Origin: Symploca sp. SIO2E9
GTDB lineage: Bacteria > Cyanobacteriota > Cyanobacteriia > Cyanobacteriales > Coleofasciculaceae
Assembly: GCA_010692645.1 (NCBI GenBank)
Contig: JAAHGS010000024.1
Coordinates: 1-64,000, forward strand
Reading direction: 5' to 3'
Length of the DNA stretch: 64,000 bases
A program made the translations under genes and the position numbers. The notes below the pieces were generated by a model, which saw only the letters and a program-made list of their open reading frames with translations, was not told the origin of the DNA and did not search any database. Positions 7,958 through 34,108 of this stretch are shown here, one piece after another (position 1 is the first letter of the stretch; each line of letters opens with the position of its first letter).

Positions 7958-9826
7958 ATGAAATTGAAGTGGTTATTCTTACTTACTAGTTTTTGGAGCT
8001 TTTTTCTGCTTTCAGGAGCTGCGGAGGCAGCTAGATTACTGTCTTGGCGTTTTGATGCTTCTCAAAACCGACTGGTGTTTACAACTGACAGTGGAATTCA
8101 ACCGAAAGCACAGCTACTGGCTAACCCCACGCGTTTAGTTGTTGATTTGCCTGGTACGACCTTAGGGGGTCCAAGATTAAATCAGCAAGGTAGAGGGGCA
8201 ATTAGGGAAGTCAGAGTAGGGCAATTTGATAACCGGACAACTCGCATTGTCGTGGAGTTAGCACCTGGTTATTTCCTAGACCCACAAAAAGTGCAATTTC
8301 AAGGTCTCTCTCCAAGCCAATGGTCAGTGCAATTACCAAGGCCTGAACCGATAGTTTCATCATCAAGCCCTCGATCCCGTCAAAGGGAAATTCCTGCCAA
8401 TGATTCTTCCTCTTCACCACCGCACTCTAGTAATGCTCAGAGCCTCGAGGCAAATCTGCCGTCAAATTTGAGTGTAACGCGAGATGGGTTTTTCATTCGC
8501 ATTCCCGGTGCGGAACCAGGATTTATCAAGGTAAGAGAAAATCGCCCTAGCAGAAGGAGACGCGATCGAGGAAAACCTCATACCGTTGATGTTGAGGTAG
8601 AAAATTTAATTTTACCTTCGAGTTTGGCAAATCGGGAGTTTGCTCTCAATAGCCATGGGGTTAGTCAAATTCAGTTTTTGCAAGAGCAAACTGATGCTAA
8701 AACAGTCGCTTTGATCAGGTTAAATGTAACGGGAGACTCTAATAATTGGCGGGCAAGTTTTAGCAGTGTAGGTGGTTTGGTAATTTTGCCTGAGAAAGCT
8801 AATGCTGCTAGCAGAGGTAGTAGCAGGCAGAACTCTTCTGGTGATTCTAACAGCAGGCTGGCAACGATTGGGTCAGTGCAACTCGCCAATAACGGCACTC
8901 AGCTGTTGATTAGGGCTAACCGGAATATCAAAGCAATCAGTACTTGGGATATCTCAGCTAATGCCTTCCGAATTACTATACCCTCTGCTCAACTAGCTGA
9001 GCAGGTAAAAGGCCCCAACCTAGACGCCAGCTCTCCTGTCTCAAGAGTCAAGCTTCGGCAGCAAGACGAAAGTACAGTAGTAATTCTGGTAGAACCAGGT
9101 AATGGGATTCAAATTGGGTCACTCAATCAGCTTAATGATCAACTTTTAGCACTGCAATTGCTAAAGACAGGTTCAGCTAGGCCCCCCACTGGCTCGATTC
9201 GAGTACCGCCGCCAGCAAGACGGATACCATCTGCTAGAAGCACTAGACCAAGAATACCTTCTCCCAGAAGTCGTGTTCCTAATAGTCGTATTGTGGTGAT
9301 GCTTGATCCGGGACACGGTGGTAAAGATCCAGGAGCTGTTGGCATCGGCGGATTGCAGGAAAAGGATGTAATTTTGCCTATTTCCCGACGAGTGGAACAA
9401 ATCTTGGAACAAAATGGCATTCAGGTAGTTTTAACTCGCTCAAGTGACTATTTCGTAAGTCTTTCCGGAAGAGTGCAAATGGCAGAAAGGGCAAATGCTG
9501 ATTTGTTTGTCAGCATTCACGCCAATGCCATTAACCTGAGTCGCCCCGATGTGAATGGACTAGAGACCTATTATTACCAAACCGGTAGGAGTTTAGCCCA
9601 AACAATTCACAACAACGTTTTGCGCAGGATTAACATGCGCAATCGAGGGGTAAGGCAAGCTAGATTTTACGTACTCAGGCGTACTTCTATGCCTGCTGCT
9701 CTGGTGGAAGTTGGTTTTGTTACAGGTCGAGAGGATTTTCAGAGATTGGCAAATCCAACTTTTCAAAACCAAATGGCAGAGGCGATCGCTGAAGGTATCT
9801 TACAGTACGTTAGACGGAGACGCTAG
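7958..9826 (+). CDS. amiC: N-acetylmuramoyl-L-alanine amidase with AMIN domains
   Basis: This secreted zinc amidase cuts the amide between N-acetylmuramate and the stem peptide during cell separation or septal remodelling. A signal peptide covers about residues 1-24 (…FLLSGAAEAA). Two AMIN-like regions (about 25-135 and 300-405) should bind the wall or septum, and a Pro/Arg/Ser-rich linker precedes the Amidase_3 domain at about 445-620. Zinc and catalytic residues visible are His453 (DPGHGGKDPG), Glu468 (LQEKD), His521 (SIHANA) and Glu584 (VEVGF). Cyanobacterial AmiC-type enzymes take part in septal nanopore formation in filaments. The stop codon lies inside a 9-bp target duplication of a small mobile element. 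Confidence 0.92.
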   Translation: MKLKWLFLLTSFWSFFLLSGAAEAARLLSWRFDASQNRLVFTTDSGIQPKAQLLANPTRLVVDLPGTTLGGPRLNQQGRGAIREVRVGQFDNRTTRIVVELAPGYFLDPQKVQFQGLSPSQWSVQLPRPEPIVSSSSPRSRQREIPANDSSSSPPHSSNAQSLEANLPSNLSVTRDGFFIRIPGAEPGFIKVRENRPSRRRRDRGKPHTVDVEVENLILPSSLANREFALNSHGVSQIQFLQEQTDAKTVALIRLNVTGDSNNWRASFSSVGGLVILPEKANAASRGSSRQNSSGDSNSRLATIGSVQLANNGTQLLIRANRNIKAISTWDISANAFRITIPSAQLAEQVKGPNLDASSPVSRVKLRQQDESTVVILVEPGNGIQIGSLNQLNDQLLALQLLKTGSARPPTGSIRVPPPARRIPSARSTRPRIPSPRSRVPNSRIVVMLDPGHGGKDPGAVGIGGLQEKDVILPISRRVEQILEQNGIQVVLTRSSDYFVSLSGRVQMAERANADLFVSIHANAINLSRPDVNGLETYYYQTGRSLAQTIHNNVLRRINMRNRGVRQARFYVLRRTSMPAALVEVGFVTGREDFQRLANPTFQNQMAEAIAEGILQYVRRRR

Positions 9827-9907
9827 GGGTGAGCGAAATAAAGACGCGGAGACGCGGAGATGCGGAGACGTGGGGAATTGAAATTCCAACCAAAATTTCG
9901 CTCACCC
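9827..9907 (+). mobile_element. 81-bp MITE-like element, copy A, with perfect 9-bp target duplication
   Basis: The ends GGGTGAGCGAAAT (9827-9839) and ATTTCGCTCACCC (9895-9907) are perfect 13-bp inverted repeats. AGACGCTAG occurs directly on both sides (9818-9826 and 9908-9916). Inside are four GACGCGGA-type octamers and then AATTGAAATTCCAACCAAA. The same element, inverted and 102 bp long, lies at 31895-31996. It encodes nothing and must have been moved by a transposase encoded elsewhere. Confidence 0.9.
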
Positions 9908-9912
9908 AGACG

Positions 9913-10824
9913 CTAGAATCCTAACTTATCTAATACTGGCTGTGTTGAAACCACATGTCGGTTTAAACCTAACTGCTGCGGACTAATTCCTAATGCCAGG
10001 GAAACTAACTGAGGTAAGTGCAGTACTGGCAAACTTAACTTACGTTCAATCACTTTCTCCACTTCTGGTTGACGGGAGTCAAGATTGAGGTGGCATAGGG
10101 GGCAAGGCGTTACTATGCAATCAGCACCAGCATCAAGGGCTTCTTGTATATGCGCCCCCGCCATCTTGAATGATTGGGTAGTGGCATAGCTGGAAAGGGG
10201 CCAGCCGCAACACTGAGTGCGACCTCGATAATATACTGGTGTTGCTCCCAGAGTCCGAAAAACATTCTCCATCGATTCTGGTTGAAAAGGGTTGTCGTAA
10301 GGGATAGATTTCTGAGCTCTGAGCAAATAGCAGCCGTAGAAAGCAGCGCACTTGAGCCCACTGAGTCGGCGGGTAACCTTAGTTTGTAGTGCTTCTAGTC
10401 CGTAATCGGCAACCAATGCCCACAGCAAATGCTTAACTTCGGTGCTGCCTTGGTAAGGTGAACAACTCTCTTTCTTTAACAATCCATTAACTTTCTCAAT
10501 ATAGGCAGTATCTGTCTGTTGGAATTCTTTTAATCGCTCATCAACATGACCAATCACTCCTTGACAGGTGCTGCAATGGGTCAACAATGGTAAATTTAAT
10601 TCCTCTGCTAGGGCAAGGTTGCGAGCATTGACGCTGTCTTCGAGCAGTTGGGAATCTTCTTTGAAAGTGCCAGAACCGCAACAGGCAGCTTTTTTGAGTT
10701 CAATTAGTTCAATTCCTAAGGCTTGGGTGAGCGCAGCAGTAGATTGATATAGTTCTCGGCAGGCTCCTTGGGCTACGCAACCGGGAAAGTAAGCATATTT
10801 TAGTCTCACAGATGAGATAACCAT
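9913..10824 (-). CDS. HdrB-like CCG-domain protein (heterodisulfide reductase subunit B family)
   Basis: The protein has two CCG domains that bind iron-sulfur clusters. The first shows YFPGCVAQGACREL and AACCGSGTF, with an extra Cys pair in THCSTCQGV. The second shows FYGCYLLRAQ, TQCCGWPLSS and TPCPLCHLN. Methanogen HdrB reduces CoM-S-S-CoB, but cyanobacteria lack that substrate and the role of their version is unsettled; it is predicted cytoplasmic. The start at ATG 10824 makes YAYFPGC begin near residue 9 as in relatives; an ATG at 10860 and a GTG at 10887 are alternatives. Its stop codon originally overlapped that of the convergent amidase gene. Confidence 0.85.
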   Translation of the reverse strand: MVISSVRLKYAYFPGCVAQGACRELYQSTAALTQALGIELIELKKAACCGSGTFKEDSQLLEDSVNARNLALAEELNLPLLTHCSTCQGVIGHVDERLKEFQQTDTAYIEKVNGLLKKESCSPYQGSTEVKHLLWALVADYGLEALQTKVTRRLSGLKCAAFYGCYLLRAQKSIPYDNPFQPESMENVFRTLGATPVYYRGRTQCCGWPLSSYATTQSFKMAGAHIQEALDAGADCIVTPCPLCHLNLDSRQPEVEKVIERKLSLPVLHLPQLVSLALGISPQQLGLNRHVVSTQPVLDKLGF

Positions 10825-11140
10825 AGGATTAAGATTAGCTGTGCAGGGTTTAAGGTTCATCTGTGAACGATTATCGCCGATCAGCACATTACCCGCACTT
10901 GATCTCAGGCATTCAGTATACTTAATGAAATTATGTTAAAAGTTATAACCGAAAAATTGTAATTGCTTTAATGTTATTAGTTGAGTGATGCAAAAGACGA
11001 TCTGCGATTGGCGCGATCGCGCCAGCGCTAAAAGCGATTGCTAGTTAGTACAGAATATATCTGCTTGGCAATTTAAGCGTGGAGGACTGGCGTTATTCCC
11101 CATTACTAAAGCAGGGATTTGGCGAACCAGGATTAAGTAT

Positions 11141-23417: not shown

Positions 23418-24527
23418 ATGACTCACTCATCGGCAAGCAGCGACGTGCATCAGACCAAATCAGCAGTAGTTAAAGTTCACTCTTCTGAGGTTTCGGTTTT
23501 AGCCTCTCAACCTGACAATCCTTCTCTGCTAGCATCTACCTCCCCATCATCAAAATCTAACTTTGCTTCTCTGGCTGCTCTGTGGGCGCGGAAATATTAT
23601 CTTGCCGTCACCACTAAGGATGAGGAGTCAGAATGTATTAACACTGATAAATTTGAGGACGTTACTTCTCAAGCAAATCGAAAGCTGACTGCTGAGAAGC
23701 TAATGTACAATCTCAATTTAGCCAGTGCTCAAGCTTGGTCCTTGACAGAAAAGTTGCTCTCGAAAGATATTCGACGCCACGGCATCAATCTAGACTTGAT
23801 CCATCCCTTGGAGATTGCTGCCGATACCCGCTATCTGTTTCAAACAGTTTTAGATGCTTATGCACGGCAAGAAACTCCCCAACGTCTGTCAGTGATTGTG
23901 GGGAAAGATTTTGGTCGAGTACGACAGAAATACACTAGCATTGACCGACGTGCTATTGGCTTTGTCAGTATGCAGTTCCACTATACTGGTCAAAAGTTAC
24001 TTGAGTGGCTCTTACCAAGCGAACAATTGTTGTGGACACCTTACTTGAAGGTAATGGATGACCACATGTACATGCCACTACAGGCTGCTTATCAAGCAGC
24101 AGCCAACCATGCCTATAATTCACCGGCTCTAATTGCTGTTCGCCAACTTCTACCAGTCAGTAGTCAAATTGCTTACTCGGTGTGCAAACAAGTATGTCAA
24201 TCCTTCCCTAACTATAGAAGCTACAGCGGTTCTCTGACAGAAATTAAAGTTAGAACTGCTAGTATCCGCGATGTGGAAATGTTTCAAGTTTACCTGTGCT
24301 TGTGTGTTTTGGATCAAGAACTTTCCTCAGTACAACGAGAGCTCTTTCCTCTGTGCGTGTTGTTATATCCTCGCTTGCAAGTAAGCTGGAGATTAGTACA
24401 GGAGATGCTCAGAATTATGGGCTGGGAAATGCATCAGTGCCTGCTTCCGGAAAATATGGCAACTTTTTTACCTTATCTACGTACCTTGACTGAGATGTTT
24501 TCTTTTGAGGTATTCCGAGAAGTTTAG
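23418..24527 (+). CDS. Conserved hypothetical protein
   Basis: The 369-aa protein has a disordered Ser-rich first 50 residues, then a mostly helical domain with no signal peptide. Recurrent clusters include HPLEIAADTRYLFQTVLDAY, RRAIGFVSMQFHYTG and YLKVMDDHMYMPLQAAYQAA. The C-terminal half has several Cys residues (CKQVCQSF, CLCVLDQ) and leucine-rich helices. I recognise no catalytic motif. It is divergent from ureD and shares a promoter region of about 170 bases with it. Probably cyanobacteria-specific. Confidence 0.7.
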   Translation: MTHSSASSDVHQTKSAVVKVHSSEVSVLASQPDNPSLLASTSPSSKSNFASLAALWARKYYLAVTTKDEESECINTDKFEDVTSQANRKLTAEKLMYNLNLASAQAWSLTEKLLSKDIRRHGINLDLIHPLEIAADTRYLFQTVLDAYARQETPQRLSVIVGKDFGRVRQKYTSIDRRAIGFVSMQFHYTGQKLLEWLLPSEQLLWTPYLKVMDDHMYMPLQAAYQAAANHAYNSPALIAVRQLLPVSSQIAYSVCKQVCQSFPNYRSYSGSLTEIKVRTASIRDVEMFQVYLCLCVLDQELSSVQRELFPLCVLLYPRLQVSWRLVQEMLRIMGWEMHQCLLPENMATFLPYLRTLTEMFSFEVFREV

Positions 24528-26220: not shown

Positions 26221-27087
26221 ATGGTAAAAAAAGGTTTATTTATAGGCATAGTTACTTTAGACTTCGTTTATCTAAGTGGCAAGCTTCCAAGTAACAACGA
26301 AAAGATTGCTGCCTCTGACTATACTGTCTCCGCTGGTGGACCAGCAACAAATGCAGCAGTAACCTTCGGATACCTTGGCAATCAAGCAGAAATTTTAGGC
26401 GTGGTTGGTACTCACCCAATTACTCAGCTCATTGGCTCTGACCTAGGAAATTATCGAGTAAGTATCACCGACCTTGCCCCAGACTATACTGAGCCACCAC
26501 CAGTTTCTTCTATTATTATCACCGAAGCTACGGGTGAAAGAGCAGTTATTTCCATCAATGCTACCAAGATTCAAGCCAGCACTGAGCAAATGCCTGCTAA
26601 TATCTATACTGGGGTAGATTTAGTGATGATTGATGGTCATCAAATGGCTCTTAGCATTGCCTACGCTCCCTTAGCTCAAAAAAATAATATCCCAGTTATT
26701 ATTGATGGCGGTAGTTGGAAACCTGGATTTGAGAAAGTTTTACCCTTCGTGGATTATGCAGTTTGCTCTGCCAACTTCTATCCGCCAGGTTGTAGTAACA
26801 GTGAGGAAGTCTTTACTTACCTACAAGAGTTGGGTATTCCCCACATTGCTATTACCCAAGGAGAAAAACACATTCAATACTTCAGCTTAGGCGTCTCAGG
26901 TAAATTACCAGTGCCGCAAGTTGAGGTCGTTGATACCCTCGGTGCTGGTGACGTTTTTCACGGTGCCTTCTGCCACTATATCTTACAACAAAAATTCACG
27001 GAATCACTAGTAGCTGCAGCTGAAATTGCCTCTTATTCCTGTAAATTCTTCGGCACTCGCCGCTGGATGGAGTTTCAGAATAAGTAA
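26221..27087 (+). CDS. PfkB-family carbohydrate kinase
   Basis: The 288-aa ribokinase-fold enzyme phosphorylates a sugar or nucleoside with ATP. The N-terminal substrate side shows AGGPATNAAVTFGYLG (the PfkB motif 1 region), and the anion hole and catalytic base are in DTLGAGDVFHGAF near 233-245, the Asp of GAGD being catalytic. Specificity is not readable. It ends …FQNK with the stop codon formed by the first unit of the long heptamer array that follows. Divergent from rsmI. Confidence 0.88.
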   Translation: MVKKGLFIGIVTLDFVYLSGKLPSNNEKIAASDYTVSAGGPATNAAVTFGYLGNQAEILGVVGTHPITQLIGSDLGNYRVSITDLAPDYTEPPPVSSIIITEATGERAVISINATKIQASTEQMPANIYTGVDLVMIDGHQMALSIAYAPLAQKNNIPVIIDGGSWKPGFEKVLPFVDYAVCSANFYPPGCSNSEEVFTYLQELGIPHIAITQGEKHIQYFSLGVSGKLPVPQVEVVDTLGAGDVFHGAFCHYILQQKFTESLVAAAEIASYSCKFFGTRRWMEFQNK

Positions 27088-27229
27088 TAAGTAATAAGTG
27101 ATAAGTGATAAGTGACAAGTAATAAGTAATAAGTAATAAGTAATAAGTAATAAGTAATAAGTAATAAGTAATAAGTAATAAGTAATAAGTAATAAGTAAT
27201 AAGTAATAAGTAATAAGTAATAAGTAATG
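27081..27229. repeat. Long heptamer array (TAAGTAA), about 21 units
   Basis: An almost uninterrupted run of the heptamer TAAGTAA; the first few units vary (TAAGTGA, CAAGTAA) and the rest are identical. It starts at the last codons of the PfkB-family gene, whose TAA (27085-27087) is part of the array. It is a likely variable-number locus. Confidence 0.95.
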
Positions 27230-31198: not shown

Positions 31199-31335
31199 AT
31201 AAGTGCAAGGTTTTAGCGTAATTATGCCAAAAACCTTTGCACAATTGATGAAAATCTGGCTTGGCTTACATGAATAATCACTCCGGAACTGTTCCCTGTT
31301 CCCTCCCCTTTCCACCAGACTTATTCAGCAAACCC
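31199..31335. mobile_element. Partial MITE-like element at the 3' end of the TPR gene
   Basis: It runs from AAGTGCAAGGTTTTAGCG to AGACTTATTCAGCAAACCC and shares block order with 45307-45441 (AAGTGCAAGG…CCTTGCAC…GGAAAATCT…TTCCCTGTT…ACTTATTCxGCAAACCC). The right terminus is shared, but the left terminus (GGGCTTGCTGAAT) of the longer copy is not found here. The TAG of the TPR gene (31335-31337 on the minus strand) straddles this terminus. Confidence 0.55.
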
Positions 31336-33029
31336 TAGTTAGTGCTAAACAAGTAATGATGCAGAGACTCCTCAACCTCCCCGCGAGCAGGGTAGAGCAA
31401 TTGCTGACTCAAAGCACTTTCATAAGCCTCTATAGCACCAGCCTTATCCCCCAACTCCAACAATGCTCTACCTTGCCAGTAGTAAGCAGTAGCCGGATTA
31501 AATGCCATCAGTTTCTTAGCTCGCTCACAAGCCTCTTGGTACCATCTCCGACTGCTAGCATCATCACCGATCACCCGATAACTCTCCCCCAGCCATACCG
31601 CAGGGGGCACAGATTGCAGATAAGCACCTTCTAGGGGTAACAACTGCCATCCTTGCTTTAAGGCTTCCACAGCCTCCCGGTGTCTCCCTACCAGTGCCAA
31701 CACCCGCCCATGGCGAAACCAAGCATCTGCCAATTGGGGCTGAAGTTGCGTTCCCTTGGCAGACAGACTACACCCTCGCTCTATATCCTGGAAACTTTCC
31801 ACCAAAACTCGACCAACTGTTGCCCAAACACTCCATCTTTCAGGAAAGAGCTCAAGCATCTCCTCCAGTATTGAAGTAAAGGTAACTTTACCCCGGGTGA
31901 GCGAAATTTTGGTTGGAATTTCAATTCTCCGCGTCTCCGCGTCTCCGCGTCTCCGCGTCTGCTTACTCCTTCCCCCACTCTTTTTTTCGCTCACCCCCTT
32001 ACCTCCCTCCTTGTAGGAAATGGGTTGGGGGAGAAGTTCAACAGAGGCAGTTATTCCCGCAGCAGGCAAAATCTCACACAATGCTCGATAAATTTCGCAA
32101 TTGTTCTGATGCAGCCCATAAGCCTTGAGAATCGCCTCCGCCGCCCCTTGGTATTCACCTGTATGGAACAAACATTGTCCATAGTAATACCAGCCGCTAG
32201 GACTATTGGGGTGTTCCTCTATAAACTTTCTCCATAGCGCAATAGTTTTTTTCCACTCACCTCGAAATAGGTAATAGTACGCCAGTGACTCATGAGCATC
32301 AGCAGAATCAGGAGCAAGACGCAGCGCCACTCGAATCATCTGCCTAGTTTGCTTACCCTCCTCACCTCTTACTAATCCCTGGCGACAGCGAGAATCAGCC
32401 AACTGTTTGAGAGTTAGAAAGTCATCAGGGGCTAACTCTAGCGCTCTACTTAAGCGTCGCCTAGCTTCCTGAAAGTTACCCACCGCCATCAGAGCCTGAT
32501 AACTATTGCGTAATAGTAAGAAATCATCTGGGTGAACTTCTAAAGCTCTATTAAATACATCTAGGGCTTCAAGAGGAGACTCTGTATCTAGATAAACTTG
32601 GCCCAGGGCAAGCCAGTGAGCCGTGTTATCTGGTTCTATCGATGCTGCTAAGGAGAACATAGAAGCTGCCTGCTGAGGGCAATGGCGACAGACTTCAATC
32701 AATCCACCCAGATGATGTCTAGTTGCTAGATTACGGCATAATGGCAAGGCACTCTCATACACCTCTATGGCCTGGGCCTCCCTTGCCATCAACTGCAGGG
32801 TTTTCCCCAGTTCCAGTCGCACCTCAATCAATGGCAATTGGGGTTGCCGTTTGAGTACTTGGCAGTATTCCTCAACAGCCTGCTCCCAACGACCCATTGT
32901 ACATAGCAACCTGGCCAATTCTAAGCGTTTCTTCCATCCAGAAGGATACTGCTGCACATACTTAGTTAATGTTTTCAGCTTTTGGTCTTGTCTAATTGGT
33001 TTTTCCTCTAAAACCAAGTGAGCATTCAT
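31335..33029 (-). CDS. TPR protein translationally coupled to a sigma factor gene
   Basis: The 564-aa cytoplasmic protein is built from about 12-14 TPR-like units (for example GRWEQAVEEYCQVLKRQPQ, ESPLEALDVFNRALEVHPD, GDKAGAIEAYESAL). Its ATG at 33029 overlaps the TGA of the upstream sigma factor gene (ATGA), so translation is coupled. A basic low-complexity insert (…KKSGGRSKQTRRRGDAETRR…), roughly residues 345-378, is encoded by a 102-bp mobile element inserted in frame. The stop codon straddles another element end. Such a partner could bind or regulate the sigma factor; that is inference. An upstream in-frame start at 33086 is less likely. Confidence 0.85.
   Translation of the reverse strand: MNAHLVLEEKPIRQDQKLKTLTKYVQQYPSGWKKRLELARLLCTMGRWEQAVEEYCQVLKRQPQLPLIEVRLELGKTLQLMAREAQAIEVYESALPLCRNLATRHHLGGLIEVCRHCPQQAASMFSLAASIEPDNTAHWLALGQVYLDTESPLEALDVFNRALEVHPDDFLLLRNSYQALMAVGNFQEARRRLSRALELAPDDFLTLKQLADSRCRQGLVRGEEGKQTRQMIRVALRLAPDSADAHESLAYYYLFRGEWKKTIALWRKFIEEHPNSPSGWYYYGQCLFHTGEYQGAAEAILKAYGLHQNNCEIYRALCEILPAAGITASVELLPQPISYKEGGKGVSEKKSGGRSKQTRRRGDAETRRIEIPTKISLTRGKVTFTSILEEMLELFPERWSVWATVGRVLVESFQDIERGCSLSAKGTQLQPQLADAWFRHGRVLALVGRHREAVEALKQGWQLLPLEGAYLQSVPPAVWLGESYRVIGDDASSRRWYQEACERAKKLMAFNPATAYYWQGRALLELGDKAGAIEAYESALSQQLLYPARGEVEESLHHYLFSTN
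31895..31996 (-). mobile_element. 102-bp MITE-like element, copy B, inserted in frame in the TPR gene
   Basis: The ends GGGTGAGCGAAA (31895-31906) and TTTCGCTCACCC (31985-31996) are inverted repeats identical to those of copy A (9827-9907). Inside are the same AATTGAAATTCCAACCAAA block and four GACGCGGA octamers, in opposite orientation to copy A, plus 20 extra bases. The flanks CTTTACCCC and CCTTACCTC agree at 7 of 9 positions, fitting an ageing 9-bp duplication. Element plus duplication is 111 bases, exactly 37 codons. Confidence 0.9.
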
Positions 33030-34108
33030 CTCCACCCCAAAGGACCAGGATAGTTGTACCAAGCATGTGGCAGTGTTTCTAGACATGTAGCTGTTACCCT
33101 GTAATTGATTTGCTCGACAATGTGCTTAATCTTGATTACTGCTTGAGCATTAGCTCTCACCTTTTTTTGATCGGATTGGGTTATCCCTCCCACAGCTTTC
33201 CCTCTTTTTTTGGCTCTCCTTGGAGCCTCCTTGGCAAGGGAAGTGCTTGCTCTAGCTTTGCCTTTGAGTGGATGGGAATGGGAGGCATCTAAAGGAGAGT
33301 AATCCAACCCTAAAAAATAGTTATGCAAACTCTTTTGCAGAATTTTTCGCGCTTTTTCCATGCGTTTGTCAACGTTATCTACAGAGATACCAAGTTGTTG
33401 GGCAATGTCATTTGACGACATCTGCTGGTAGCAACGCAGGCTAAAAATATGACGCAGTCTCGAAGGCAGAGCATTAATAGCGTGGCGGATGTACATGCTC
33501 AACTCACGACGGAGAAGGGCTGACTCAGGAGAGTCGATGCTAGAAGCAATTTCTGAGCTATCTCCCAATGCAATTTCTTCAAGGCTTTCAATACCAATTG
33601 CCCCTCTTTTGCTTTCTCGATGCATATCCACGCAGAGGTTATGGGTTAATCTAGTCAGCCAGGCTTTGAGGTTGGTGATTTTGTGTGCATACTTTGGCAA
33701 TTGATTCCAGGCTTTGAGGGTAGCCCGAGAAAGTGCTTCTTCTGCATCCGTATGCTTGCCTCCCATCCATTGAAGGCAACGACTGTAAAGATATTCACGA
33801 TATTGCTCCCACAGTTGCCAAAAGACACTGCGATCGCCAGCAGATAAAATGCTTAGTAGTATCTGCTCCTTTGATTGTCTTGAGCCTTTGATGGTTTGCT
33901 TGTCAACTTGAGTTTTGCCAGCAAATACTTTACTCAAGTTGTTGGCAGCTAAACCAGTGCGCTCACCCATGACTTCGAGGGTATATTGATTGCCGCCGTT
34001 GTCCTCACATTCTGCATTGCATTTTGCTAAGTTTAATTTCTGCAATCCTTGAGACGTAAGCATTACACCGCGCTTGCGCCTATCTTCGGGTACATGTTTC
34101 GATATCAT
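33026..34108 (-). CDS. ECF-like sigma-70 factor with an N-terminal HTH-like domain
   Basis: The 360-aa protein has three parts. Residues about 14-75 (LTSQGLQKLNLAKCNAECED…YTLEVMGERTGLAANNLSKVF) match the helix-turn-helix module that opens many cyanobacterial NTPase, WD40 and pentapeptide proteins. Sigma region 2 is at about 88-165 (DAEEALSRATLKAWNQLPKY, LKAWLTRLTHNLCVDMHR) and sigma region 4 at about 213-262 (LPSRLRHIFSLRCYQQMSSNDIAQQLG). A basic tail of about 95 residues follows, ending PHAWYNYPGPLGWR. No anti-sigma factor with a membrane segment is adjacent; the coupled TPR protein is the natural candidate partner. The target promoters are unknown. Confidence 0.85.
   Translation of the reverse strand: MISKHVPEDRRKRGVMLTSQGLQKLNLAKCNAECEDNGGNQYTLEVMGERTGLAANNLSKVFAGKTQVDKQTIKGSRQSKEQILLSILSAGDRSVFWQLWEQYREYLYSRCLQWMGGKHTDAEEALSRATLKAWNQLPKYAHKITNLKAWLTRLTHNLCVDMHRESKRGAIGIESLEEIALGDSSEIASSIDSPESALLRRELSMYIRHAINALPSRLRHIFSLRCYQQMSSNDIAQQLGISVDNVDKRMEKARKILQKSLHNYFLGLDYSPLDASHSHPLKGKARASTSLAKEAPRRAKKRGKAVGGITQSDQKKVRANAQAVIKIKHIVEQINYRVTATCLETLPHAWYNYPGPLGWR

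Follow-up and report, generated by a model that had tools for sequence, protein, structure and literature searches.

In-frame insertion of palindromic elements into proteins is best known from Rickettsia, and for other prokaryotes one discussion of the subject calls it only "conceivable" (PMC10969869). The Rickettsia palindromic elements (RPEs; Ogata 2000/2002) are, as outlined in that same source, short palindromes that lie in frame in unrelated protein genes and contribute a conserved peptide to them. Gene-overlapping MITEs, sometimes giving in-frame fusions, are represented by QMITE1 and QMITE2 of Coxiella burnetii (PMC5896051) and by the enterobacterial RU elements (PMC2759123), with the QMITEs mostly supplying gene ends or small basic peptides of their own. 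A minisatellite-bearing MITE has been described from Porphyromonas gingivalis (PMC4596501), and cyanobacteria harbor Nezha and other MITEs, some with open frames (Zhou 2008; Wolk 2010, both as cited in PMC10969869). In the ISKra4 group of insertion sequences (p-MULT 4; Guerillot et al. 2014, PMC3942029), several elements have their insertion sites upstream of sigma-A promoters.

We analyzed a 64,000-nucleotide stretch of Symploca sp. SIO2E9 (positions 1 to 64,000 of contig JAAHGS010000024.1, assembly GCA_010692645.1; hereafter the window) that carries two copies of a cyanobacterial MITE. Like the RPEs, this element sits in frame in unrelated protein genes and adds one conserved peptide, a likeness of description rather than of compared sequences; it differs from them in belonging to another phylum, in a host that is not an obligate intracellular bacterium, and in having clear 9-bp target duplications, a candidate transposase source and an internal 8-bp minisatellite. 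It overlaps genes as the QMITEs and RU elements do, but whereas QMITEs keep mostly to gene ends or their own peptides, here full copies lie midway in long multidomain proteins. Again by description, it resembles the P. gingivalis element in having a tandem repeat within a MITE, although the host differs, and Nezha and its kin in being cyanobacterial. The autonomous relatives reported below agree with ISKra4 insertion sequences in inverted repeats, 9-bp duplications and transposase family, while the MITE itself has no transposase and does have a minisatellite. On the reading that we prefer, to which we would give a probability of about 90%, a non-autonomous MITE has been moved in trans by an ISKra4-family transposase, landing harmlessly between genes and persisting within genes as translated copies.

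The insertion between convergent genes

An 81-bp copy of the element (9827–9907, plus strand, A-rich left end first) separates amiC, a cell-wall amidase gene with AMIN and Amidase_3 domains (7958–9826, plus strand), from an HdrB-like gene with CCG domains (9913–10887, minus strand). The initial annotation had delimited it by perfect 13-bp inverted repeats (left, GGGTGAGCGAAAT, 9827–9839, plus strand; right, 9895–9907, minus strand) and by a perfect 9-bp duplication, AGACGCTAG, at 9818–9826 and 9908–9916, and every one of these coordinates is confirmed. The duplication spans both of the overlapping TAG stops: the amidase gene ends CGC TAG inside the left copy (stop at 9824–9826), the HdrB-like gene ends TTC TAG inside the right copy (stop at 9913–9915, minus strand), and, as had been proposed, both genes are intact and neither protein is changed. 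Within the element, positions 9842–9870 (plus strand) hold 3.6 copies of a minisatellite unit, AGACGCGG, which by inspection is free of stop codons in all six frames. The left end lacks an inner block, GNGTGGGG, that is usual in the family; the corresponding inner part of the right end, GGTTGGAATTTC, is retained.

The pre-insertion junction predicted from the duplication, with the two stops overlapping in CTAG, is found in a sister genome of the same genus (G001), where the same convergent pair meets without the element. Once the element and one copy of the duplication are removed, the window sequence is 89% identical to this empty site along a gap-free alignment of 1010 bp. This allele, together with the family-wide 9-bp duplications, bears out the interpretation of the locus as a transposition footprint. 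Two of the earlier statements went too far. The insertion was called recent and datable, and the only bound on its age is that it is younger than the split from the sister species (~89% DNA identity across the junction); it was also taken to define the element exactly, and the 81-bp copy is shortened and atypical for a family that usually measures 102 bp with ends of ~24 bp.

The MITE family in the genome

Exact matches to the 12-base end number 231 in the 7.7-Mb genome, as against 3 for a reversed control pattern, and there are 177 to the 23-base left end, as against 0 for its control. Copy number in this cyanobacterium is roughly 180 or more; a BLAST search of the genome returns about 40 copies directly, the majority longer than the window copy. 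Lengths run from 81 to 201 bp, varying mainly through AGACGCGG and its 8–10-bp variants, and no copy holds a transposase gene. Among 57 copies in 1.57 Mb the modal length is 102 bp, the window's 81-bp copy is the shortest, and 38 have a perfect 9-bp duplication, with none perfect at 5–8 or 10–12 bp. A sample of 96 copies gave perfect duplications in 66 and at least eight of nine matching bases in 78, so that the duplications looked for in related copies are indeed there. End motif and duplication stand far above chance, and the element is a high-copy MITE: short, dispersed, with inverted ends, a fixed 9-bp duplication and empty orthologous sites, two of them in the sister genome.

Intergenic positions hold 38 of 55 copies, against about 20% expected, an excess that is consistent with purging of harmful insertions, the survivors within genes being mostly read through. 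The intergenic copies show no excess at divergent positions, in which they differ from the promoter-inserting members of the ISKra4 group, and promoter targeting of that kind is unsupported. Eight of the 38 lie between convergent genes, and one strand of the 81-bp copy folds at −37.4 kcal/mol (z −5.45 versus shuffles), from which one might argue that the element is kept at such junctions as an RNA-level device, either a bidirectional terminator or an mRNA-stabilizing hairpin, rather than being a neutral footprint. We consider this improbable: the convergent share only slightly exceeds the ~14% found for random intergenic positions, strong folding is a consequence of inverted ends, no T-run follows the hairpin, and the sister junction does without the element altogether.

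Among named genomes, a pattern scan located the ends in Symploca MAGs, Nostoc, Desmonostoc, Calothrix, Fischerella, Xenococcus and others. Of 193 other genomes of the class, sampled evenly, none matched the exact left-end pattern, and the distribution of the family is therefore patchy. The plasmid and phage collections searched returned minisatellite matches only, and the end sequences did not appear in the literature on mobile elements that we searched.

Autonomous relatives

The full-length insertion sequences whose existence the initial annotation had raised, sharing the MITE's ends and flanked by 9-bp duplications, are present in other cyanobacteria. Calothrix membranacea has an autonomous element of 1899 bp flanked by CCCTTAACA, with a transposase (L233) scoring 275 bits against the ISKra4-family profile NF033572; an intact 1932-bp element in a genome of the Allocoleopsis group (G015), flanked by GTTATTGGG, encodes a transposase scoring 282 bits. 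The family call uses this profile's cut-off of 205 bits, which the transposases of L233 and L255 exceed. A 1324-bp element of Fischerella muscicola also has a 9-bp duplication, CAGGCGATG, and its transposase gene is broken, split over two frames. Alongside the Calothrix transposase lies a passenger gene of 137 aa (L233, 973–1386, minus strand) with no NCBIfam or Pfam match, and a small protein of similar appearance is encoded close to an ISKra4-like gene at L120, 644–964.

The MITE end GGGTGAGCGAAAAAAGGCGTGGGG matches the end of the G015 element, GGGTGAGCGAAAAAAAGCGTGGGG, at 23 of 24 bases, and where the right MITE end has AAATTTTG, the insertion sequences have AAAAAANG. When the sequences are read side by side, ends and duplication length are all that MITEs and autonomous elements are seen to share, and it is these two features, rather than any internal homology, that point to ISKra4 as the probable source. 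The genome itself contains no intact matching transposase, only an 82-residue fragment, although in an assembly of 383 contigs an intact source may have been missed. One could accordingly imagine that the copies are moved by a different transposase recognizing similar ends by chance; the lack of any internal match seen and the missing enzyme would fit, but we think this quite unlikely, given a 23/24-base end match, duplications of 9 bp in each of three separate genomes, and the ISKra4 copies, internally deleted but still bearing these ends, in two related MITE-carrying genomes (G001 and G002).

Other candidate sources were rejected. PF01609 transposases were represented in the same genome by one 69-codon match without matching ends, and a 385-aa ISKra4-like gene at G000:C135 falls below the family cut-off and likewise has no matching ends. 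Occurrences of the end motif outside MITEs, followed in 22 genomes, led to no full element.

Copies read within genes

A 102-bp copy plus its 9-bp duplication adds 111 bp, or 37 codons, and keeps the frame, and one forward frame of the element is open and hydrophilic, encoding a conserved peptide close to GVSEKKSGGTSKQTRRRGDAETRRIEIPTKISLTR. In the 96 copies, which were not selected for frame, 14 lie in genes (about one in seven) and the frame stays open in 12, counts that are approximate since genes were called by a simple script. Nine of the 14 use the same forward frame, where a random phase (1 in 6) predicts about 2.3 (P about 1e-4); the exceptions are one frameshifting copy, one that adds a stop near the gene end, one on the reverse strand and one in a second frame. 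An in-gene copy at C1:11857–11958 (L122) occupies the normally blocked frame that begins GGG TGA, and reads TGG in place of TGA, as if read-through had been restored. Two in-frame copies occur in a single gene of ~1550 codons (L301; G000:C330:23527–23628 and 24115–24216).

Searching the genome with the peptide gave 149 matches, of which about 18 fall within open frames of more than 250 codons, and matches are found in G001, G002 and G014 as well. The peptide has no Pfam match. Its hosts include TPR, CHAT, AAA, CHASE2, OprB porin, DUF2079, WD40, polyketide-synthase and AIRS-domain proteins. In the AAA ATPase host (C113) it lies in an unaligned inter-domain stretch, and no close orthologue turned up among the relatives searched.

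The one in-gene copy aligned to a close orthologue is the second copy in the window, a full-size 102-bp element (31895–31996, minus strand) read in frame as VSEKKSGGRSKQTRRRGDAETRRIEIPTKISLT in the gene for a 583-aa TPR protein (31335–33086, minus strand; insert at residues ~364–397). The two sides of its target duplication, CTTTACCCC (31886–31894) and CCTTACCTC (31997–32005), match at 7 of 9 positions. The sister orthologue, 558 codons from stop to stop, lacks exactly the 34-residue insert, with 87% protein and 88–89% DNA identity on both sides of it. That in-frame copies are mere gene-prediction artefacts, the element's open frame bridging unrelated open frames, is very improbable: the gene caller is simple and a minisatellite that is stop-free in any frame does extend open frames, but the sister TPR gene is continuous, and curated domains flank or span the inserts in the host proteins (CHASE2, DUF2079, Pyr_redox_2, WD40 blades, TPRs).

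For the TPR host, structure prediction from the sequence alone, of low confidence overall (pLDDT 57.5), places the insert as low-confidence coil between helices, lending weak support to its serving as a linker. Three more distant TPR homologues (L407, L409 and L428) have, at this linker, repeat-like peptides of other kinds, such as PLPLSYKQRGVRGE and PLKRGENPVNVPLDRG, which suggests that several dispersed repeats may enter the same tolerant site of this family.

Proposed mechanism and significance

If the MITE is indeed mobilized by ISKra4, the transposase, a Mutator-like DDE enzyme, would presumably recognize the ~24-bp ends, GGGTGARCGAAAAAANGNGTGGGG, and a 9-base staggered cut at the target followed by repair would leave the 9-bp duplication that is seen. 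At 9818–9916 the target would have been the AGACGCTAG sequence, in which the stops of the two convergent genes overlapped; each gene would be left with its own stop after target duplication, and the insertion would therefore be neutral. Gene-internal copies in open phase would be tolerated as translated linkers because copy and duplication together make whole codons and the element can be read as an open, hydrophilic stretch in one forward frame, so that a filter rather than targeting would account for them. The stop-codon site is another harmless mode of insertion, for which special targeting is unnecessary. As the source transposase has apparently been lost from this genome, the copies are probably now stranded.

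A more adventurous view, which strikes us as doubtful, is that this selfish element has been selected for translatability, the 111-bp unit, the stop-free minisatellite and the single hydrophilic open frame having been maintained because they make gene insertions survivable. Were this so, such selection would keep a cyanobacterium steadily furnished with new protein linkers. In-frame insertion is in any case now seen in a cyanobacterial lineage, and sister empty sites, fixed duplications and a candidate transposase source make it experimentally testable. Annotators who meet the same ~34-residue peptide repeatedly in these genomes, in proteins otherwise unrelated, should take it as transposon-derived.

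Minor observations

At G000:C2:103596–103896 (L134) one copy is inserted at the edge of another; the 9-bp duplication, ACCCAGCAT, takes in the final four bases of the older one, and the order of insertion can be read from it. The minisatellite unit differs among genera, being GTGTGGGGA in Nostoc and Calothrix and AGCTGGGGG-like in Symploca, and these arrays (L188, L195, L209, L211, L217 and L230) appear to have arisen by expansion of the inner left end. Elsewhere in the window, the heptamer AATAAGT is repeated about 21 times in an array at 27079–27228.
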